Below, piece by piece: positions 15,402-39,820 of a DNA stretch of 43,157 nucleotides. Numbering within the stretch: position 1 is the stretch's first letter; every line of letters begins with the position of its first letter. The notes below the pieces were generated by a model that ran no database searches, was not told where the DNA came from, and saw only the letters and a program-made list of their open reading frames with translations. The translations under genes and the position numbers were made by a program. This DNA is from a virus: positions 1 through 43,157 of the IMG/VR virus record IMGVR_UViG_3300010354_000178. One strand, written 5' to 3'.

Positions 15402-15416
15402 AATTCTCTCATTGTT

Positions 15417-15424
15417 GATAAATA
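15417..15424 (+). promoter_or_regulatory. T4-type late promoter (GATAAATA) for gp4
   Basis: GATAAATA matches the T4 late consensus TATAAATA at seven of eight bases. It lies 33 bases upstream of the gp4 ATG at 15457 and faces the plus-strand late genes. Its position argues against a start at the upstream in-frame ATG (15412), which would lie before the promoter. Confidence 0.55.
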
Positions 15425-15436
15425 CTTATACTGTTA

Positions 15437-15444
15437 TATTTATA
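15437..15444 (-). promoter_or_regulatory. T4-type late promoter (TATAAATA) for the baseplate block
   Basis: On the minus strand this is an exact TATAAATA, the T4 late -10 element. It is about 36 bases upstream of the gp48-like ATG at 15401. With 15417-15424 it forms a divergent late promoter pair in a 55-base gap. No recognisable -35 element is expected for this class. Confidence 0.75.
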
Positions 15445-15456
15445 GAAGATTTAATA

Positions 15457-15900
15457 ATGGCTAGTTACAAAGGAAGATTTAAACCGAAGTATCCTGAAAA
15501 ATACAAGGGTAACCCTACTAATATTATTTATAGAAGTCTGTGGGAATTGAGAGTTATGAGGTATTTTGACCAGCATCCAGGGGTAATTGAGTGGGGATCT
15601 GAAGAAATAATTATACCTTATATTTCACCAGTTGATAATAAAATTCATAGATATTTTCCAGATTTTTATGTTAAAATGAGAAATAGAACAGGCACTTTAG
15701 AAACTATGATTTTAGAAGTAAAACCATCAGGTCAAACTAAAGAGCCTGTTAAACAAGATAAAGTTTCTAGACGCTACATTAAAGAAGTTTTTACTTATGG
15801 TATAAACCAAGCCAAATGGAAGGCAGCAGAAGAATTTTGTAAAGATAGAAAATGGATTTTTAAAGTGTTGACAGAAAAAGAACTAGGTATTAAAAATTAA
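15457..15900 (+). CDS. 4: Head completion protein gp4
   Basis: From the ATG at 15457 the product is 147 residues (T4 gp4: 150) and begins MASYKGRFKPKYPEKYKG, the usual gp4 start. Family segments are visible: NIIYRSLWELRVMRYFDQHP, EEIIIPYISPVDNKIHRYFPDFYV and the ILEVKPSGQ strand. The PDFYV...EVKP layout is that of a TnsA/PD-(D/E)XK-like nuclease fold. gp4 acts in head completion before tail joining. The frame continues 15 codons upstream to an ATG at 15412, but that region carries the late promoter, so 15457 is preferred. Its stop overlaps the next ATG (TAATGG). Confidence 0.9.
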   Translation: MASYKGRFKPKYPEKYKGNPTNIIYRSLWELRVMRYFDQHPGVIEWGSEEIIIPYISPVDNKIHRYFPDFYVKMRNRTGTLETMILEVKPSGQTKEPVKQDKVSRRYIKEVFTYGINQAKWKAAEEFCKDRKWIFKVLTEKELGIKN

Positions 15901-19593: not shown

Positions 19594-20520
19594 TTAGCTG
19601 TCTTGTGCAAGCTTCTTAAAGAAGCTAAGTTCATCGTCATCATCTTCTTCCCATGGAGCACTCTGCTTAGGTGCTTCCTTAATAGGAGCTGACTTTGAAG
19701 GAACCGGGAATGCCTCCTCTTCTTGCTCAAGCATTTGATCTGCATGACTACGGTTAGATCCAGATGCACCTGCAAGATCGATTGCTTTCTCAAGGCGCAT
19801 CTTAAGTTCTTCATATGACTTAAAGTGCTTTGGATCAACAAGCTCTTGCAATGAGTGCTGCTGTTCCCACACCTTTTCAATAGCGCTATCATCATCAAAG
19901 AGAGCTGAAGGTGAGTCAAATTCAGACTTATCATAGTTACGATAGCCCTCTACATTACGAATCTTAAGCTTGAAGTTGGCTCCCTCCCAAGGATCAAACG
20001 GGTTAAGAGCAGCCTCATCTTCATACTGAGGGTGCATAGCTTCGTTGATCTTATCAAAGATCTTCTTACCATACTTGAATAGGAATACCTTACCGTCATT
20101 TTCTGGTCGAGTAGGATCCTTAACTACGTAAATATTAGAGTAGTAGCTAAGACGACGCTTCTGCTTACGTACAAGATCTTTATTAGACTCAATACCAGAG
20201 TTCCAAAGCTTAGTATTATACTCAGACAGTGGATCTGGCTTACCGAGAGTTGTCAGTGACTTCTCAATATACCAGCCGCCGGGGCCCTGAAAGCCATGAT
20301 CCCAAATGCGTACGAAAGGTACATCTTCATTCTTTGGTGCAGAAAGAAAACGAATAACTGCATAACCGTTACCTGCCTTATCTACATCAGGCTTCCAAAA
20401 ACGATCATCAGAAGAATTATCTTGATTGTTATTATTTGACTTGAGCTTGGTAAGCTCAGAGGTAAGCTTATCGAAAGAGGATTTACGATTCTGCTTAAGG
20501 GCTTCAAAATTACTTGCCAT
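19594..20520 (-). CDS. 32: Single-stranded DNA-binding protein gp32
   Basis: 308 residues (T4: 301) with the gp32 layout: a basic N-terminal cooperativity region, a core with YAVIRFLSAP, LSYYSNIYVVKDPTRPENDG, FKYGKKIFDKINEAM and DPWEGANFKLKI, then an acidic tail EEDDDDELSFFKKLAQ. It coats single-stranded DNA in replication, recombination and repair. The T4 zinc ligands are lost: the T4 CPVCQY segment reads DPLSEY here (residues 96-101) and the protein has no cysteine at all. A GGAG Shine-Dalgarno precedes the ATG. Third-position GC is visibly higher than in neighbours, as expected for an abundant protein. The 51-base leader holds a small GTATA-AGTG-TATAC inverted repeat (20545-20558). Confidence 0.96.
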   Translation of the reverse strand: MASNFEALKQNRKSSFDKLTSELTKLKSNNNNQDNSSDDRFWKPDVDKAGNGYAVIRFLSAPKNEDVPFVRIWDHGFQGPGGWYIEKSLTTLGKPDPLSEYNTKLWNSGIESNKDLVRKQKRRLSYYSNIYVVKDPTRPENDGKVFLFKYGKKIFDKINEAMHPQYEDEAALNPFDPWEGANFKLKIRNVEGYRNYDKSEFDSPSALFDDDSAIEKVWEQQHSLQELVDPKHFKSYEELKMRLEKAIDLAGASGSNRSHADQMLEQEEEAFPVPSKSAPIKEAPKQSAPWEEDDDDELSFFKKLAQDS

Positions 20521-20571: not shown

Positions 20572-21144
20572 TCATGAGAACTTTTCTCTCAAGATACTAC
20601 AATATTTAGCTTTATCATAATCCATGAAGGGATAAAGCTTTCTACAGTTAAGTGCTATTGTAGGCCACAAAACTGGATCGTTAATTTGTTTATTCCATTT
20701 ACCAAAGAAGCGTACACAGTCGTTAATAATAATAAATGTTTCTTTAGTAATTTTATTACGAACAAGCAAATTAAGAAGGTGAGGATAGTTGCCAGATTGA
20801 ACTTCAAAATTACTATCAAAGTTCTCTAACATATTACCGATATCATTTTGAAAGTTATACGAGAGTGATTGTTTACGTTTTAAGTATTTACTATAGACTA
20901 ACTCATACTCACTATTAAACAAATCACCTACCCATATTTTAGGATTTTCTGATAAATTTGCAACTAAAAAAGTTAAAGGGTCTTCATGCTTAGATAGTTT
21001 ATAAAATTGATATTTGTCTTTACGAGTCTCAAAAGTGTTTTCTGATGCTCTCACTTTACCATTATATTTGAAGTAGTCGTAAGATTCTGTAGTAAAGTGG
21101 TTCTTAATAGCATTATAAAGTTTATATGCTTCAAATGGTGTCAT
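20572..21144 (-). CDS. 59: Helicase loader gp59
   Basis: 190 residues (T4: 217). The N-terminal pattern PFEAYKLYNAIKNHF, YDYFKYNGKVRASENTFETR and KDKYQFYKLSK matches T4 gp59, as do PKIWVGDLFNSEYELVYSKY and the later NKITKETFIIINDC. gp59 loads the gp41 helicase onto gp32-coated DNA; its partner gp32 is the next gene. Its ATG overlaps the gp33 stop by four bases (ATGA), so the two are translationally coupled. Confidence 0.92.
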   Translation of the reverse strand: MTPFEAYKLYNAIKNHFTTESYDYFKYNGKVRASENTFETRKDKYQFYKLSKHEDPLTFLVANLSENPKIWVGDLFNSEYELVYSKYLKRKQSLSYNFQNDIGNMLENFDSNFEVQSGNYPHLLNLLVRNKITKETFIIINDCVRFFGKWNKQINDPVLWPTIALNCRKLYPFMDYDKAKYCSILREKFS

Positions 21145-21377
21145 ATTGGAAGTCTTGCACCTGTCTTCTTCATTAATCTAAGATCTTCAGCCTCATGTTG
21201 AATCTTTGTCTTTAAGAACGTGCTTTGTTTAATAATAGAAGCCGCTGTTTCAACTTCAATATTATTTACTTCACAATATAATACAACTGCTTCAAAAAAG
21301 CTAATACTTTTTGAAGACGATATTTTTTCTATCTCTTTAGCAAAATCCGCAGAGGTTTTAAATTTAGGAATATTCAT
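21141..21377 (-). CDS. 33: Late transcription coactivator gp33
   Basis: 78 residues, shorter than T4 gp33 (112) but with the same core: a stretch like the T4 SYLEATTAFLEENSI segment (SFFEAVVLYCEVNNIEVETA), then KTKIQHEAEDLRLM, and ending ARLPI. gp33 links the sliding clamp gp45 to host RNA polymerase carrying gp55 at TATAAATA promoters. Several such promoters are present in the window. It begins just downstream of the tmRNA and overlaps gp59 by four bases. Confidence 0.85.
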   Translation of the reverse strand: MNIPKFKTSADFAKEIEKISSSKSISFFEAVVLYCEVNNIEVETAASIIKQSTFLKTKIQHEAEDLRLMKKTGARLPI

Positions 21378-21390
21378 TTATGCTGCACTT

Positions 21391-21704
21391 TAAAAAGGGA
21401 GGTGGTGGGATTCTGTTTCCAAGCTCCCACCGAGCTCATGTTAGGCCGCTAAGGCGTAACGAGATGCAACATTATCGTTTGCATTTAGATTAATGGTCTA
21501 TAACGCGACCAATCGACTATCTCAAGTTACCTATTACACGCCTGTCGATCCTGTTTCGCCCCCATCAAAGATACACCGAGTTCATCCTTTAGCGTCACTA
21601 AGCGCTTAGTGCGGATATAACGAGTTATCGCGGTGTACCTTTGGTGGAGGCGCGGGGTACCGCCCCCCGGTCCAGATCGTCTTTCGATTTCCGTCAACGA
21701 TAGT
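21391..21704 (-). ncRNA. ssrA: Circularly permuted (two-piece) tmRNA, tag ANDNVASRYALAA
   Basis: The minus strand of this gap reads as a permuted tmRNA. First comes an acceptor piece: a 5-bp arm CGGGG/CCCCG (21669-21653), acceptor strand CGCCTCC (21652-21646), then ACCA ending at 21642. Next is a 78-base intervening loop whose ends pair (AAGGTACACCG with CGGTGTATCTT). The coding piece starts at 21563 with GGGGGCGAAACAGGATCGAC; its GGGGGCG pairs with CGCCTCC over 7 bp (one G-U). The tag frame at 21482-21441 is GCA AAC GAT AAT GTT GCA TCT CGT TAC GCC TTA GCG GCC TAA. A GGTGGGA/TCCCACC hairpin (21404-21431) and T5 follow. The order is that of alphaproteobacterial two-piece tmRNAs. Oddity: the T-loop position reads GGCGGTA, not the usual TTCRA type. 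Exact outer ends are approximate. Confidence 0.93.
21441..21482 (-). other. tmRNA proteolysis-tag reading frame
   Basis: Thirteen codons plus TAA, resuming at GCA, encode ANDNVASRYALAA. The ANDN opening and ALAA end are typical of proteobacterial SsrA tags; the terminal LAA is the ClpXP recognition signal. SmpB and ClpXP would be supplied by the host, as no SmpB gene is seen in this window. Confidence 0.92.
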
Positions 21705-21708
21705 ATCT

Positions 21709-21716
21709 TATTTATA
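21709..21716 (-). promoter_or_regulatory. T4-type late promoter (TATAAATA) for the tmRNA
   Basis: An exact TATAAATA on the minus strand, 5 bases before the apparent 5' end of the pre-tmRNA. It lies between the exonuclease stop and the tmRNA, and could also read into gp33, gp59 and gp32. Confidence 0.7.
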
Positions 21717-21729
21717 ATATATATTTTGA

Positions 21730-22359
21730 TTAAATGCCATATTTAATTTTGTATTCTTTGCGTACTTCTAGCAGTTTATTTACAAAATTGTCTCTGCGCT
21801 CTTCAAATATTTGTGGTTGCTCATCATCGACTGATATGAGAATAACTATTCTCGATACTGGTATATTAAAACGCTCTTCATACATAATTGCATAAGCGGC
21901 TGCTTGGCAAAAATAATTAGTAATATAATTCTTATCTTTTAGTTTGCGAGCTGTTTTAAAATCAACAATAGCTAATTTACCATTATACTCAGCTACACAG
22001 TCTACAGTACCTGCCATCTCAAGATAATCTGAATATAATCTTTCTTCTTGAAGATGTACGTTGTCGATATTACTATCAATAACTTGTTTTAAAAGTTTAA
22101 AATTAAACGCATCATTAAAGTTATACTTCGCAGTATCTATAATACTGCCGTTAATATAATCTTCACACAACTGGTGTATACGTGTACCACGTCTTGCAGC
22201 TGTTGAACTAATCCTATTAGCTTCTTCCTCACCTACGCGCAGTCTCCACTCTTTAATTGCATCAGCACCTAAAAGACCGGTTACCGTTGTTACAGAAGGG
22301 TAGAGTTTACCGGCAGGCGTTTTGTAATACCTGCCGGTATCTGTATTTACTTGTTCCAA
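21730..22359 (-). CDS. PD-(D/E)XK exonuclease, RecB/Cas4-like
   Basis: The conserved region begins near LEQVNTDTGRYYKTPAGKLY and contains SVTTVTGLL, RGTRIHQLCEDYI, MAGTVDCVAEY, LAIVDFKTARK (the D-x-K core) and CQAAAYAIMYEE (QxxxY). These are the motifs of the RecB-type nuclease fold found in many marine T4-like phages. The open frame extends upstream to 22494 (TTG), but that part overlaps phoH and looks like its shadow. The best in-frame start I see is a TTG at 22359, giving about 209 residues; no ATG is available near the domain start. An ATG overlapping the phoH stop is in another frame. A role in DNA recombination or host DNA degradation is inferred. Confidence 0.8.
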   Translation of the reverse strand: MEQVNTDTGRYYKTPAGKLYPSVTTVTGLLGADAIKEWRLRVGEEEANRISSTAARRGTRIHQLCEDYINGSIIDTAKYNFNDAFNFKLLKQVIDSNIDNVHLQEERLYSDYLEMAGTVDCVAEYNGKLAIVDFKTARKLKDKNYITNYFCQAAAYAIMYEERFNIPVSRIVILISVDDEQPQIFEERRDNFVNKLLEVRKEYKIKYGI

Positions 22360-22375
22360 TACGTCTTTGTACTGC

Positions 22376-23179
22376 TCATTCTTTTTGAGCAGCGTGAAGT
22401 GCTTCCGCTCCTGCAAAATGCCCTGAAGTAAAGATTGGTGTTCTAAAATTTGTTGCTTCAAGTTGTGTTTTCTTAATAATAAACTCTTTAACAAGACCTG
22501 ATCTTACGATATCATCTTCTGTAAATTCGATACAAGAGAAATATTTTGGCATCTTGTTGATAATTTTCATAAAGTTTTTAAGCCCTGACTTATCATCATC
22601 GTATGATAGATCAGTTTGTCTATAATCGCCACTAAAAACTATTTTGGTATTTTTACCTACGCGAGTAATAATTGTTGTTAGTTCATGATAGGTCATATTT
22701 TGACATTCATCAACAATAACAATACTATTATCAAAAGTTACACCGCGTAGGAATGATGATGTCTCAAAAGTTACTAAACCTTTACCTTTTAAAATATCAT
22801 ACGCGTCTTTTCTTCCATAGAGCTCAGTACATATTGATTGATATGGAGCTTCATAAACTTTAGCTTTGTCTTTAACTGAGCCTGGAAGGAAGCCCATGTC
22901 TCTTGTAGGTACTACTGATCTAATAATTACTATATTTTTATATTCATGGTATTCTATAAGCTCATTTAGTGCGAGATAAAGTGATATGAAAGATTTACCT
23001 GTGCCTGGTAGTCCGTGGATGAAAAGATTTTTACCATTTGTAAAGTCTCTAAATACTTGCTCCTGATTTTTTGTTTTTGGAGAAATGGATCTTAATGAAA
23101 GATAGTTTTTTTGCTCTTTTGCCTCCTGACGCTTTTGTTCTCTTAAAAGTCTTTTTTCAGCGCGGGTTAGTCTTTCCAT
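22376..23179 (-). CDS. phoH: PhoH family P-loop ATPase
   Basis: 267 residues. After a basic N-terminal 30 residues there is a PhoH ATPase core: Walker A GLPGTGKS (56-63), VIIRSVVPTRDMGFLPG, Walker B IVIVDECQN (D157, E158) and the FSGDYRQTD sensor motif. PhoH proteins have RNA helicase-like folds and are common in marine phages; their function in infection is unsettled and a phosphate-starvation link is not shown by this sequence. The next gene, an exonuclease, follows without a gap. Confidence 0.95.
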   Translation of the reverse strand: MERLTRAEKRLLREQKRQEAKEQKNYLSLRSISPKTKNQEQVFRDFTNGKNLFIHGLPGTGKSFISLYLALNELIEYHEYKNIVIIRSVVPTRDMGFLPGSVKDKAKVYEAPYQSICTELYGRKDAYDILKGKGLVTFETSSFLRGVTFDNSIVIVDECQNMTYHELTTIITRVGKNTKIVFSGDYRQTDLSYDDDKSGLKNFMKIINKMPKYFSCIEFTEDDIVRSGLVKEFIIKKTQLEATNFRTPIFTSGHFAGAEALHAAQKE

Positions 23180-27016: not shown

Positions 27017-27139
27017 ATGATGAGAACAACGATATTCATATCTGCGCTGTTTTGTTTTACTACAGGTCTTATGCCTGCAGTACCTATTGGTCTAGCTTAT
27101 ATAGACTATCTGCTCAGGTTACGAAGTTCTATAAATTAG
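27017..27139 (+). CDS. Possible 40-residue membrane peptide on the opposite strand
   Basis: An open frame of 40 codons, MMRTTIFISALFCFTTGLMP..., almost entirely hydrophobic with a short polar end. It is on the plus strand among minus-strand genes and overlaps the end of the glycosyltransferase gene by 21 bases. TGCGATAAT upstream is an extended -10-like element, but it lies within 20 bases of the ATG and no ribosome binding site is seen. It could be chance; alternatively a small membrane toxin-like peptide. Confidence 0.25.
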   Translation: MMRTTIFISALFCFTTGLMPAVPIGLAYIDYLLRLRSSIN

Positions 27140-28105
27140 AACTTCTTCTCTGTTATTAAGAAGATTACTATCTTTCATCTTTTTGAGAGACTCTAAAAGA
27201 GTCTTCCATTCGATGAGACGTTTGTGCCAATTAAATTTAGCATCTGCATACACCTTGATGAATTCAATTTCATTGAGGTGTCTTTTTTCGCGAACATCGT
27301 TGATAGTTTGAGATAGAACTCCAGCAAATTTGCTAGCGTGAATATTCTTATCTTCATCCCACTGATACATTCTAGTAATACCACCACCTGTATCATACAG
27401 AGCACCAAGATTAGGATGCACACATACACATTTAGCGCTCATTGCTTCCATAAGAGCAATACATGAGCTCTCTACCCATATATTAGGGTAAGCAAAAATA
27501 TGCGCTTCTGCTAAAGCTTTCTTTATTTGCTCATTAGGCACGGATCCATAATAGTTAATTTTTGGATTAGATTTGCAGCGGTCAAAGAGAGCTTTATACT
27601 GCTCATCACGCTGCTCCCACCCATAAATCTTAAAACTAGAATATACATCAAGCTCGATATCATCATGCTCTTGGCATAATGCTTCAAAAACAGGAACTAG
27701 AAGTTCTAGACCTCTATGAGGTGTTGGGTGGTATATAAGCTTAATTTTATCTGATGGCTTCTCTAAAGGCTCAATAGGTTCAATAGCATTATTAAGCACG
27801 ATTGATTTAAAATATGGAATACCTAATACCATATTAAAGATATTCATCTGCCAATTAGAATTAAATACAAAATAATCAAACTTCTTCCATCCGTTATTTT
27901 TTAGATGGTCGCATGCGGGATCCCAAGGTAGATCTTGGTGCCAGTAGATCTTAATCTTATTAGGATCAAGTTCTTCCTCTACTCTTGAAACAAAAATTTG
28001 AAAATCACTAAGATAATCTTCTCCGAGTTCTTGCACTAGCCTAAATTTCATAAGCTCTGAACCACCCATTGCTTTAGATGAAAGTGTGTCTTTAGCTAAC
28101 GGCAT
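27119..28105 (-). CDS. GT-B family glycosyltransferase
   Basis: 328 residues from the ATG at 28105, which has GGAG about 9 bases upstream; the longer TTG start (28135) lies in the epimerase gene. IYWHQDLPWDPACDHL and DYFVFNSNWQMNIFNM are acceptor-domain segments. The donor domain has IKLIYHPTPHRGLELLVPVF, NYYGSVPNEQIKKAL and AYPNIWVESSCIALMEAMSA, the E-x7-E type motif of GT4-like enzymes. It overlaps the epimerase by 14 bases. Likely substrates are sugar nucleotides, with the acceptor being phage DNA, virion protein or host surface; the sequence does not decide. Confidence 0.85.
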   Translation of the reverse strand: MPLAKDTLSSKAMGGSELMKFRLVQELGEDYLSDFQIFVSRVEEELDPNKIKIYWHQDLPWDPACDHLKNNGWKKFDYFVFNSNWQMNIFNMVLGIPYFKSIVLNNAIEPIEPLEKPSDKIKLIYHPTPHRGLELLVPVFEALCQEHDDIELDVYSSFKIYGWEQRDEQYKALFDRCKSNPKINYYGSVPNEQIKKALAEAHIFAYPNIWVESSCIALMEAMSAKCVCVHPNLGALYDTGGGITRMYQWDEDKNIHASKFAGVLSQTINDVREKRHLNEIEFIKVYADAKFNWHKRLIEWKTLLESLKKMKDSNLLNNREEVLIYRTS

Positions 28106-28958
28106 TTTCTTTTCTCCATAATTTAATATGCTCAATCACACTATCTTTAGGCTGCCAGCCAGAAATATTTTGCTTTGTGCATAATGTGTCTTGTAGTTCG
28201 TATTTTCTATCTTCTATCTGAATATAAGGATGATCGAAAGCTTTTGCAATATCTATAATAGCAACATTTTTACCTGTACCTAAGTGGTAGTCAGTTTCAT
28301 GTTCATTCTTATACAAAAGTAACTCTAGACCTTCTATAGTATCATTAACAGAGGTAAAATCTCTTTTACGCAATCCGTTTCCTACAATTGTAAGAGGTTT
28401 ATTTTGAAGATATTGTTGTTTAAATTTACGTATAACTGTAGTGTGTTCTCCGAGATCTTTTTCTCTCATTGAACCATATACGTTATAAAATTTAATAAGA
28501 CTGCTCTGTACGTTAAATAAACGTCTATACATTTCTAAAAGATCGTCACATACAAACTTTGAAAATGTGTATGGGTTATTATATTGATCTGTGAATTCTG
28601 TTGTTGAAGATGATGCAAAGAACATATGACCTGAGTCAGTTCTTCTAATATACTCACAAAGTGCTACTGTGCTGGTATAATTGTTGAGAAGTGTTTCTTC
28701 AACATATTCAAAAGATCTAGCAATACGAGCATTGTTTGCTAGATGAAAGATTTTATCGTATTTAATATTATTATTTTTACAGAAGCTTACAACATCTGTT
28801 ATATAATAATTAGCTTCTTGATTTATATTATCTGCTGAGCCTGTAGATAAATCATCAACCACATCTACTGTGTAGCTCTTTACTAATCTATCTACTAAAT
28901 GACTACCAATAAAGCCGAGACCGCCGGTAACTAGTATTTTCTTTTTCACATCATTCAT
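28092..28958 (-). CDS. NAD-dependent epimerase/dehydratase (extended SDR)
   Basis: 288 residues. KILVTGGLGFIGSHLVDRL is the Rossmann dinucleotide motif near residue 8-26, VVDDLSTGS follows, and FHLANNARIARS, FFASSSTTEF and YTFSK supply the Ser and YxxxK catalytic triad of extended short-chain dehydrogenases. SLIKFYNVYGSM and KRDFTSVNDTIEGLELL fit nucleotide-sugar 4-epimerases or dehydratases. It feeds the coupled glycosyltransferase. It follows the holin-like gene and its late promoter, so sugar modification may be late. Confidence 0.9.
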   Translation of the reverse strand: MNDVKKKILVTGGLGFIGSHLVDRLVKSYTVDVVDDLSTGSADNINQEANYYITDVVSFCKNNNIKYDKIFHLANNARIARSFEYVEETLLNNYTSTVALCEYIRRTDSGHMFFASSSTTEFTDQYNNPYTFSKFVCDDLLEMYRRLFNVQSSLIKFYNVYGSMREKDLGEHTTVIRKFKQQYLQNKPLTIVGNGLRKRDFTSVNDTIEGLELLLYKNEHETDYHLGTGKNVAIIDIAKAFDHPYIQIEDRKYELQDTLCTKQNISGWQPKDSVIEHIKLWRKENAVS

Positions 28959-31270: not shown

Positions 31271-31440
31271 TATTTTTTGATCCTTCTAGCTTTAGATTCT
31301 TTTATTATTTGCTTTCTTTCATTATCAGTATATATCATCCAATTTTGAATATGTATAGTTGTCCTACCACACACTATACAAAACTGTGTGGTAGGATCTA
31401 GTTCACAAATTTTTAGACATGGACTTAGAACAGTTCGCAT
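31270..31440 (-). CDS. DUF1289-like cysteine-rich protein
   Basis: 56 residues from the ATG at 31440 (a TTG at 31455 is the alternative). SPCLKICELDPTTQFCIVCG carries four cysteines in a C-x3-C ... C-x2-C order, followed by GRTTIHIQNW and a helical DNERKQII end, the pattern of DUF1289, a small metal- or Fe-S-type family widespread in proteobacteria. It overlaps the nrdJ stop by 16 bases. Host capture is inferred. A perfect 12-bp inverted repeat (31362-31396) lies across the cysteine codons. Confidence 0.75.
   Translation of the reverse strand: MRTVLSPCLKICELDPTTQFCIVCGRTTIHIQNWMIYTDNERKQIIKESKARRIKK
31362..31396. repeat. Perfect 12-bp inverted repeat inside the DUF1289-like gene
   Basis: TCCTACCACACA (31362-31373) and TGTGTGGTAGGA (31385-31396) flank an 11-base loop. 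The structure sits within the coding region for the cysteine-rich segment. It is not followed by a T tract. Confidence 0.8.
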
Positions 31441-33638
31441 CCGCCACCAACACAAGCAGCAGAACCTATAGTATCAACATCTACATATTTAACTTCTTTA
31501 AGCTCTTCATCCCACTTAATATCAGAAATAGTTTGTTGAATCTTCTCCCATTTATGAAGTAGATAAACATCCTTAAAGCAATACTCAGTTTTCTTAAGAT
31601 CACCATTAAAGTAGTTTGAAGAGAATTTTTTAAATCTACGAATCCAATCTTTCTTCATAGTATTTTCATGATTATCCGCGGTGAGATCTTCTCCGTAACC
31701 ATTTGCAGTCATGCATGCAAGCCAAAGATTATCAAATGACTTTAATGCTTCTACGATAAGACCAGATGCCATAATAGCCCCTGCACCATACTTATCTACA
31801 ATCTCTTGTGATGTGAGTACTTGTGCATTAGGTGCTTGGAAATAATCTTTATCACCAGTCATTGGAAGAAATGATATGCCAGCAAAGTGATTGCGGTTAT
31901 TAAATACATAATCCTCAATAGCATCGTAGTCGTCAACAATGACAGTATTAGATACGTTGTGGCGAATACCAGGATGAGCGCATCTATCGATATTAGTGCC
32001 AGCATTTACCCAGTGCTCCTGTGCTTTCTTAATTAAATCGAGGTGTTTAACACCAATAAGGTCATTTTTAAATATAGATCCAGATTTAGAAATAACTGGG
32101 AATGAAATTGCATAATCAGTCTTACCTGAAGACCAAGCAGACTCTTCTACCATATTTGGATTCATTCTCTTAATAAGCTTAGCTACTTCTGTATCCTTAT
32201 TAAGCTGAATAGTACGAATATACATTGGTGCATGTTCTGCGTGAATACCAGAAGCGGTCATTAATAGTACAGATGCATTACCAGAAGGCTTGACGCAAGT
32301 TGTTCTGGCGGCGGGGTTGATTCCAAGAAGCGCTGCAACCTCAGCATTAGTTTCTCTAACAATTTGTGCACCTTTCTCTAGAATCTTTTCATCAAAAAGA
32401 ATACTAGGGTTATTCATCCACCCGGTAATTGAAACGCCGAGTAGAGCTTCTCTATCAAAGATTTCTTTAGAAGTTGAAGATAAAAATTTAAAATCTGTAT
32501 AACCTGCTTGAAGAGTTCCAAGGATAGAACCTGCACGACATGCGCGATAAAATACTTCCTCACTATCACACATACCACCATTAATCTCTGTTAGGTTGCA
32601 CCCCTGCCAGCCTGACTTACCGTTAATTTGAGGATACATACCAATCTCTACGCAAGGATTAGTAGTAATATCCTTATCATCAACGAAAAAGAATCCAGGC
32701 TCACCAAACTCTTTAATAGAAGTCATAAGTTTATTAAATTGTTCTCTAGTTATTGTGTCACGTACAATAACAGCGCTATTATTAGAACGGCCACGCTGTG
32801 GATTATCAATATACCAAGACCCGGTCTTTGCTGTAGCCATTTCGTCATCCTCAGGGGAGAAGAGACAGATTGTCGCAGAACGTCGTACACCACCAGAAAG
32901 CACAGCATCAGCAGCGTGCATAACAATATCGTATACATGGATTGGCCTCAATGAAACAGTCTTATCCTGGATAGTAAGACCTGTTAAAATATACTCGATA
33001 CGGTCCAGCGAGCGACGAAGAGGCTCAGGGCCTGGAGCTTTAAACCCTCCAGAAATCTTAGCACCCTTAGGACGAATTTGAGAAAGATCAAAATAAATTT
33101 TTCTACCTGCATATTCAGAGTACTTACCACCATTTTCAAAATAAGAAGACATAAGAACATCAAGCGCGGTTGCCCACCCCTCAATGGAATCTTCAACTAC
33201 GTGAGTCTTTGGCTGCTTAGTACGCGGCGCAATCTTAGGAAGCTTGTCAATATGATGCTTCTGTACTGAGAACCCTGCGCCAGCCCCACAAAGAAGAATA
33301 TAGAATACTTCACCAAAAAATTCAGGGCGATCTGCATATGAAGAAGTGCAATTATACATTTTCATTTGATGACGAATAAGCTGATCTCCACCAAACTGTA
33401 GTGCGCGTTGTGCACCAAGAACTAATTTCTGCTTATAAGCAGTAGCTGCTTCATCCATTAATGCCATTAACTTTGATGACATTTTGTCAGCGTAGAATCC
33501 TGTATGCATATGCATTACACGATTAACTGCTTCTGACCAAGTTTCGTATCGACTTTCACCTTCTACAAATCGAGCATATCCTTCATAAAACTTCGCATCA
33601 GAGAGAAGTTTTTTCGTATCTTTATATAAAGCAGTCAT
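31425..33638 (-). CDS. nrdJ: Class II (adenosylcobalamin-dependent) ribonucleotide reductase, monomeric type
   Basis: 737 residues, nearly the length of Lactobacillus leichmannii RTPR (739), and the same residue plan: C97 in MYNCTSS and C347 in GCNLTEING (active-site redox pair), the thiyl cysteine C329 with E331 in TTNPCVEIGM, and the C-terminal shuttle CVGGGC (C729, C734). It reduces ribonucleoside triphosphates to deoxynucleotides for phage DNA synthesis using cobalamin, so the host must make or import B12. Codon use is somewhat GC-richer than the small genes around it. Glutaredoxin lies 2 kb downstream. The ATG at 33638 follows the AbrB-like gene by one base. Confidence 0.95.
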   Translation of the reverse strand: MTALYKDTKKLLSDAKFYEGYARFVEGESRYETWSEAVNRVMHMHTGFYADKMSSKLMALMDEAATAYKQKLVLGAQRALQFGGDQLIRHQMKMYNCTSSYADRPEFFGEVFYILLCGAGAGFSVQKHHIDKLPKIAPRTKQPKTHVVEDSIEGWATALDVLMSSYFENGGKYSEYAGRKIYFDLSQIRPKGAKISGGFKAPGPEPLRRSLDRIEYILTGLTIQDKTVSLRPIHVYDIVMHAADAVLSGGVRRSATICLFSPEDDEMATAKTGSWYIDNPQRGRSNNSAVIVRDTITREQFNKLMTSIKEFGEPGFFFVDDKDITTNPCVEIGMYPQINGKSGWQGCNLTEINGGMCDSEEVFYRACRAGSILGTLQAGYTDFKFLSSTSKEIFDREALLGVSITGWMNNPSILFDEKILEKGAQIVRETNAEVAALLGINPAARTTCVKPSGNASVLLMTASGIHAEHAPMYIRTIQLNKDTEVAKLIKRMNPNMVEESAWSSGKTDYAISFPVISKSGSIFKNDLIGVKHLDLIKKAQEHWVNAGTNIDRCAHPGIRHNVSNTVIVDDYDAIEDYVFNNRNHFAGISFLPMTGDKDYFQAPNAQVLTSQEIVDKYGAGAIMASGLIVEALKSFDNLWLACMTANGYGEDLTADNHENTMKKDWIRRFKKFSSNYFNGDLKKTEYCFKDVYLLHKWEKIQQTISDIKWDEELKEVKYVDVDTIGSAACVGGGCELF

Positions 33639-39086: not shown

Positions 39087-39236
39087 TTATTTTCCTTCTC
39101 CTAATAAATCTTTGATGTAAGTTGATTCTTTATAAAAAACAGATTTATCTTTAATATATTTAGGTTTTATAAGACCTGCGGTATTATTAGACGTCACATT
39201 ATTAGAGCTGTTATTAGCTACTTGTTTCTTGCTCAT
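39087..39236 (-). CDS. Small basic hypothetical protein
   Basis: 49 residues, MSKKQVANNSSNNVTSNNTA, GLIKPKYIKDKSVFYKESTY, ending GEGK. Its ATG overlaps the dps stop as ATGA (39233-39236) and AGGAGAAGG near its end provides the ribosome binding site of the next gene. Asn-rich linker then a basic/aromatic motif. Unknown function. Confidence 0.65.
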   Translation of the reverse strand: MSKKQVANNSSNNVTSNNTAGLIKPKYIKDKSVFYKESTYIKDLLGEGK

Positions 39237-39820
39237 TTTCTTGAACTTTTAATAGCATTAGTGATTGCAGCTCTTCTCTTAGCAATATAATCGTCTGTTT
39301 TATCATTTTTACCGTCATTGTTAACATCAGCGTCTTCTTTACCTACTGGATCTAAAGCCTCTGTTGTAACAACTGCAATAATCGGCGTCTTAGAAGATGC
39401 TCTCAACATCCAACCATGCTTTTTATGAATATCAATGCGGTCTTGTAAAAAATTAGCAAGACCTAATTCATTAGCTGCTTCTGCAGATTTATATGCTATA
39501 GTTAAACTTGTAATAACTTTAGCATTATCCATTAAAGCAATTCTAATCATTTCATCTGCATTAATTACAATATTTTGATCTTCAATTGAAGTGAGATCTG
39601 AATATCTAGAAAGAGAACCAGGTGCATACCCACCTGCTGCTCTGATATGTTCAGCAATAGAATCTATTGCGCCAAACACTTCTTCATAAAGATTACCAAA
39701 CAACTCATGATACTGAGGAAAGTTGGGCCCTTCTACATTCCAATGAAAGTTATGAAGTTTCAAATAGAATGCAAAAGAATCAGCCAATACTACTTTCATA
39801 TTATTAATTAATTCTTCCAT
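39233..39820 (-). CDS. dps: Dps-like ferritin-family protein with EF-hand/dockerin-like tail
   Basis: 195 residues. The Dps ferroxidase set is complete with canonical spacing: H26 (NFHWNVEGPNF), H38, D53 and E57 (AIDSIAEHIRAAG), equal to H51/H63/D78/E82 of E. coli Dps. After the four-helix core, a tail (163-195) contains DVNNDGKNDKTD, a calcium-loop pattern with ligands D165, N167, D169 and D176, then a basic helix YIAKRRAAI. Dps stores iron and protects DNA from oxidants. It lies among structural genes behind a late-type promoter, so packaging in the virion is possible but unproven. Confidence 0.88.
   Translation of the reverse strand: MEELINNMKVVLADSFAFYLKLHNFHWNVEGPNFPQYHELFGNLYEEVFGAIDSIAEHIRAAGGYAPGSLSRYSDLTSIEDQNIVINADEMIRIALMDNAKVITSLTIAYKSAEAANELGLANFLQDRIDIHKKHGWMLRASSKTPIIAVVTTEALDPVGKEDADVNNDGKNDKTDDYIAKRRAAITNAIKSSRK

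Follow-up and report, generated by a model that had tools for sequence, protein, structure and literature searches.

The stretch of DNA analysed here (the window; IMG/VR record IMGVR_UViG_3300010354_000178, 43,157 nucleotides, G+C content 34%) is part of a T4-like myophage genome, and the proteins it encodes include gp32, gp59, gp33, PhoH, a PD-(D/E)XK (PDDEXK) nuclease, RNase H, tail tube and baseplate proteins. Its minus strand, from 21750 to 21401, holds a complete circularly permuted two-piece tmRNA of the alphaproteobacterial type, located between the PDDEXK gene (end at 21730) and the gp33 gene (start at 21377). The gene order PhoH - PDDEXK - tmRNA - gp33 - gp59 - gp32 is common to Methylophilales phage Melnitz and many IMG/VR relatives. 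The features of the locus are the following.

22376-23179, minus strand: PhoH-like protein, upstream of the tmRNA (PF02562, E = 1.4e-44)
21730-22494, minus strand: PD-(D/E)XK nuclease, a conserved neighbour directly upstream of the tmRNA (PF12705, E = 1.5e-5)
21709-21716, minus strand: late-promoter box TATAAATA at the 5' end of the tmRNA gene (exact match)
21699-21704, minus strand: ACTATC, pairing as 5' strand with GATAGT (21521-21516) in the outer helix of the tRNA-like domain (RF04321 alignment)
21642-21704, minus strand: acceptor piece (3' half of the tRNA) with the 5' strand of P2, the T-arm and CGCCTCC-ACCA; mature 3' A predicted at 21642 (Rfam alignments, P2 covariation)
21564-21641, minus strand: spacer between the two pieces, a long hairpin that is presumably excised (fold)
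21557-21563, minus strand: GGGGGCG, which opens the mRNA-like piece and forms the 5' side of the acceptor stem, within GGGGGCGAAACAGGATCGAC beginning at 21563 (pairs with CGCCTCC)
21404-21563, minus strand: mRNA-like piece (5' half of the tRNA, tag, post-tag hairpin), 3' end approximate (RF01849 match to 21401, fold)
21441-21482, minus strand: tag frame ANDNVASRYALAA with resume codon GCA and stop TAA (translation)
21404-21431, minus strand: post-tag hairpin GGTGGG...CCCACC around GGAAACAGAA, similar to the alpha_tmRNA consensus (Rfam alignment, fold)
21141-21377, minus strand: gp33-like late-transcription coactivator, directly downstream of the tmRNA, the same neighbour as in Melnitz (PF16805, E = 3.9e-17)
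20572-21144, minus strand: gp59-like helicase loader (PF08993, E = 4.7e-13)
19594-20520, minus strand: gp32-like single-strand DNA-binding protein (PF08804, E = 5.8e-45)

Elsewhere, the window encodes a ferritin-like domain protein (39233-39820; PF00210, E = 3.3e-24), a protein with a match to the B12-dependent ribonucleotide reductase insertion domain (31425-33638; PF21995, E = 3e-7) and, at 27119-28958, adjacent glycosyltransferase group 1 and NAD-dependent epimerase genes, possibly involved in surface or DNA sugar modification. A protein with a TnsA-like endonuclease N-terminal domain (15412-15900; PF08722, E = 6.5e-22) is encoded between the baseplate and tail tube genes; the TnsA-like protein of T4-like phages may be used otherwise than in Tn7.

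Structure of the tmRNA

In cmscan searches of Rfam, both permuted-tmRNA families match over their full model length and above their curated cut-offs: alpha_tmRNA (RF01849) at 21750-21401 with 126.5 bits (cut-off 50, E = 2.8e-34) and tmRNA_permuted (RF04321) at 21704-21441 with 115.7 bits (cut-off 47). An earlier, sequence-only reading had proposed such a permuted two-piece tmRNA, to be abandoned if no permuted-tmRNA model matched, and these matches bear it out. ARAGORN finds no tmRNA and no tRNA in the window despite the clear Rfam match, so that this gene finder misses the phage tmRNA. A second place matching RF01849 (33063-33198, 14.9 bits) is below the cut-off and was taken as chance.

The permuted order is apparent on the minus strand, where the CCA end at 21642 precedes GGGGGCG at 21563. 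The anatomy read from the letters alone holds throughout. The acceptor piece, with its T-arm GGACCGGGGGGCGGTACCCCGC followed by CGCCTCCACCA, ends in CGCCTCC-ACCA at 21642; the second piece begins with GGGGGCGAAACAGGATCGAC; the 7-bp acceptor stem GGGGGCG/CGCCTCC is paired at 7/7 positions, including the G3-U70 wobble, the alanine identity pair; and the tag frame translates from 21482 to 21441 as ANDNVASRYALAA-stop, with a resume codon, an open frame and a hydrophobic C-terminus ending in ALAA. The spacer between the pieces (21641-21564) is self-pairing, as claimed, with a fold of -22.8 kcal/mol that is better than 199/200 shuffles (1/200 as stable; z = -2.75), and for the whole tmRNA z is -3.03, with 0/100 shuffles equally stable. 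All elements named in the sequence-only reading are thus present; two points had to be refined: the gene lies on the minus strand, and the transcription unit reaches beyond 21704 to at least 21716, taking in TATAAATA.

Conservation among phage relatives

Related loci were gathered with one exact motif, GGSGAAAYAGGATCGAC, yielding at least 120 IMG/VR stretches and at least 118 bacterial ones, and the counts given below describe these samples rather than a census; two of the viral matches listed (L070, L104) were rejected as chance matches. Among the matches listed, one or more of the T4 neighbour genes were detected in 75/120 viral stretches, and in 74 of these 75 loci every detected neighbour is in the expected order and on the expected strand, with PhoH/PDDEXK before the tmRNA and gp33/gp59/gp32 after it.

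There is little variation in the acceptor stem, and all 95 distinct phage sequences among the matches listed keep G3-U70 (95/95). In the same 95 sequences, the P2 helix is paired at 92% (inner part) and 91% (outer part), vs 74% and 60% with shuffled partners, although the phage sequences are kin to each other and the shuffles therefore serve as a guide, not as a probability. The changes in P2 are coordinated on both sides (CTG/CAG, CAG/CTG, ATG/CAT and others), and this covariation supports a helix between the two pieces. A tag ending in -AA was found by an automatic test in 96/99 distinct genes with enough downstream sequence among the matches listed, which carry 75 different tags, and the remaining 3/99 (L073, L086, L103) apparently have unusual tags, as judged by eye. 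Tag-less relatives had been suspected, but most proved to carry tags, some of them long or unusual, that a narrow search had missed. Such conserved structure and tags would have the look of a working tmRNA rather than of a relic or a tag-less decoy.

Several relatives depart from the common pattern. By eye, the tag of three permuted phage tmRNAs (L073, L103, L108) appears to comprise ~29 residues, beginning with AKK instead of ANDN and ending in ..ASA. Four others (L081, L093, L124, L109) have unusually long tags of 29-31 residues with the ALAA end retained. In L039, a close relative of the window phage by gp59 and gp32, the tRNA-like T-arm reads GGTTCGAAACC instead of the usual GGGGCAGTACCC, the acceptor stem has one mismatch and the tag ends in KIAA. 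Three loci related by gp33 (L131, L132, L134) carry a permuted tmRNA whose score also exceeds that required by the betaproteobacterial model RF01850, which suggests that more than one tmRNA type exists in these phages.

These data bear on the possibility that the phage RNA is a decoy that shuts off host trans-translation by competing for SmpB, a role proposed for the RNA of mycobacteriophage DS6A, which consists of a tRNA domain only. An RNA of that kind has been reported as a strong tmRNA inhibitor (PMC4131195; PMC11915505). Neither the window nor any of 13 related records, including 4 annotated phage genomes of 141-150 kb, yielded an SmpB gene, whereas the positive controls were detected; consequently, host SmpB is presumably used, and a decoy would indeed have to share it. 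However, a decoy requires neither the protease-type tag end kept in nearly all distinct genes listed nor a resume context and post-tag hairpin that fit the functional family model, and we regard this explanation as highly unlikely.

Promoter signals of the tmRNA gene

The most interesting side of the window tmRNA is how the gene is switched on. The word TATAAATA is the T4 late-promoter box. It was treated as such in the description of Melnitz (PMC9004378), and its occurrence in the window at the -10 position (21716-21709) marks a candidate T4-type late promoter. Promoters of this type depend on a gp55-type sigma factor, gp33 and the sliding clamp; gp33 is among the window proteins. One such word is unremarkable alone in an A+T-rich genome (7 in the window vs 10.6 expected), so that the case for a late box rests on position and conservation. 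Among the matches listed, TATAAATA occupies a fixed position ahead of the tmRNA in 67/94 distinct phage loci, starting 64-84 nt before the CCA end, and likewise in Melnitz; it is absent from the remaining 27/94 and from all bacterial tmRNAs listed (0/103), of which 24/103 are A+T-rich upstream. The runner-up among the 56 words composed of these letters has a count of 20 in the 94 loci listed and overlaps TATAAATA. A close relative, contig IMGVR_UViG_3300021962_003158, shares TATAAATA and the bases after it with the window tmRNA and has an identical gp33, but its upstream sequence differs. All six other copies of the box in the window are 28-124 nt upstream of ORF starts on the same strand, including those of tail tube and baseplate genes, against a background of 7.5% of window positions within 130 nt of an ORF start; as two pairs are close together, they amount to about four independent sites.

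A purely late promoter was nevertheless dropped as a general reading, because a test for -35 elements showed that most relatives combine late and sigma70 signals. Among the matches listed, 47/94 phage loci have a -35 element with at least 5/6 identity to TTGACA 16-18 bp upstream of the late box, and in 6 more the late box is abutted by a distinct -10-like word that has a -35 of its own, so that the two signals are fused or abutting in 53/94; the other loci listed have a late box only (14), a sigma70-like promoter only (9) or neither (18). Counted by site, 48/68 late boxes listed are preceded by a -35 of at least 5/6, vs 2.3 expected. Away from the tmRNA, in the same contigs, TTGAC(A/T) is combined with TATAAT at 46 sites and with TATAAATA at 3, compared with 0 and 48 at the tmRNA, and a -35 of this kind accompanies TATAAATA at 5/141 sites. 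The pairing of a -35 with TATAAATA, rare elsewhere and frequent at the tmRNA, is thus a composite form largely particular to this gene. The window phage itself belongs to the late-box-only class, its best -35 being ATGGCA (4/6, 18 bp before the box), and four relatives (L017, L046, L052, L126) have TTGATT at 17 bp from the box.

Early expression of the Melnitz tmRNA from a sigma70 promoter has been argued, and from this early promoter it was proposed that the RNA is an early-infection tool that tags host proteins for degradation and thereby recycles amino acids early (PMC9004378). The good sigma70 -35 box found before the tmRNA in most relatives among the matches listed, and in Melnitz, would accord with this proposal, but the late box is present in the majority of the relatives listed and in Melnitz as well, usually in the same promoter, and the -35 of the window phage is poor. 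Moreover, the target of tmRNA in trans-translation is the stalled ribosome, with no selection of host proteins. An exclusively early role in recycling host proteins is therefore very improbable; rather, the phage probably makes its tmRNA through much of the infection, to judge from the promoter signals.

A literature search conducted mostly outside subscription journals yielded no description of a late or composite promoter for a phage tmRNA. Accordingly, the promoter is the part that was not found described, whereas phage two-piece tmRNAs themselves are already known.

Origin of the phage tmRNA

In a comparison with 289 alphaproteobacterial genomes, even the best match extends over only about 41 bases. 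In annotated phages, similar DNA is limited to 35-base matches to the acceptor region, in DSS3_MAL1 and MD18, and none was found for the tail region. Trees of the conserved parts split the 100 phage from the 116 bacterial sequences among the matches listed across one branch, or nearly so: with longer alignments the support of this branch is 0.75-0.94 and 0 or 2 sequences are misplaced, and with shorter ones 9 and 20 are, a dependence on alignment length that gives the split moderate weight. With that weight, a long-separate phage lineage of tmRNA is favoured. Conversely, capture of a host tmRNA fragment, a remnant of an integration site or a functionless passenger, for which one could invoke the frequent integration of phages and islands into tmRNA genes (PMC9004378; PMC11915505), is already disfavoured and hardly credible in view of the complete gene, its fixed position across divergent T4-like phages, its phage-type promoter box, the short bacterial match and the tree.

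Proposed function

The locus very probably represents a functional gene for a permuted two-piece tmRNA, which has long resided in this lineage of T4-like myophages and is embedded in a block of replication and late-transcription genes, and ordinary trans-translation during infection appears to be its most likely function. The transcript would begin just after TATAAATA, the spacer would be cut out by host tRNA-processing enzymes, and the RNA would be charged by host alanyl-tRNA synthetase. Host SmpB would then bring it to stalled ribosomes, which would be freed, and the unfinished peptides would receive ANDNVASRYALAA and be passed to host ClpXP-type proteases. From this arrangement we infer, as the sequence-only reading had suggested, that the phage may control ribosome rescue and tagging during infection: its own control would keep ribosome rescue going into the late phase, when rescue may be of benefit, and in most relatives the sigma70 promoter would add early expression. 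Few host transcripts are stable in T4-infected Escherichia coli, and the host tmRNA is one of them (PMC9697503), as would fit a demand for ribosome rescue in infected cells.

On the basis of these comparisons, we consider it likely that T4-like phages of alphaproteobacteria and OM43 possess a tmRNA lineage that has long been separate and is driven by a composite promoter, in which the sigma70 -35/-10 is either fused to the late box or adjoins it. The RNA would be made both early and late, from a gene beside that of the late-transcription coactivator, with the late half of the promoter dominating in the window phage. If so, the published early-only reading would be corrected, and continuous ribosome rescue would emerge as a phage need. 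The early and late signals, combined in a phage-type promoter that is conserved over very divergent T4-like phages, suggest when the RNA is wanted.

Comparison with known systems

Two-piece tmRNAs accounted for 53/133 distinct phage tmRNA structures in a 2022 survey, and the Melnitz tmRNA, its location before the coactivator gene and the two-piece tmRNAs of other marine phages were described in the same work (PMC9004378). The question of prior description, left open by the sequence-only reading, is thereby settled for the class, with Melnitz at the same gene position. The ssrA of Methylophilales phage Melnitz EXVC044M (MZ577097; PMC9004378) resembles the window gene: both encode a two-piece tmRNA of the alphaproteobacterial type, belong to a T4-like myophage and lie between PhoH/PDDEXK and the genes for the late-transcription coactivator, gp59 and gp32, with TATAAATA at the same place. 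It differs in its tag, in a perfect TTGACA 17 bp before TATAAATA, where the -35 of the window is poor, and in a reported glutamine riboswitch, whereas the window has no riboswitch match at the Rfam cut-offs. In the Melnitz record, the late box (46000-46007) is inside the deposited tmRNA feature (45984-46436), and the intergenic filter of PMC9004378 could have removed it; a promoter box within the deposited feature could thus hide the promoter class.

Bacterial two-piece tmRNAs (RF01849/RF04321, for instance, that of Caulobacter) share with the window tmRNA the acceptor stem, G3-U70, the T-arm, P2, the ANDN start of the tag and the post-tag hairpin. However, the 5' hairpin of the model, ahead of the tRNA domain, is largely unmatched in the window, and a T4 late box takes the place of the bacterial promoter arrangement. 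In roseophage DSS3_MAL1, where ssrA is annotated, and Phaeobacter phage MD18, phage DNA matches the acceptor region of the window tmRNA, but these loci have tRNA genes nearby and other surroundings, and the likeness is confined to the 35 matching bases. Finally, mycobacteriophages (Bxz1, Wildcat and others) and DS6A also carry a tmRNA or part of one (PMC4131195); unlike the window gene, these tmRNAs are not listed as two-piece in that work, and the DS6A RNA comprises little beyond the tRNA-like domain.
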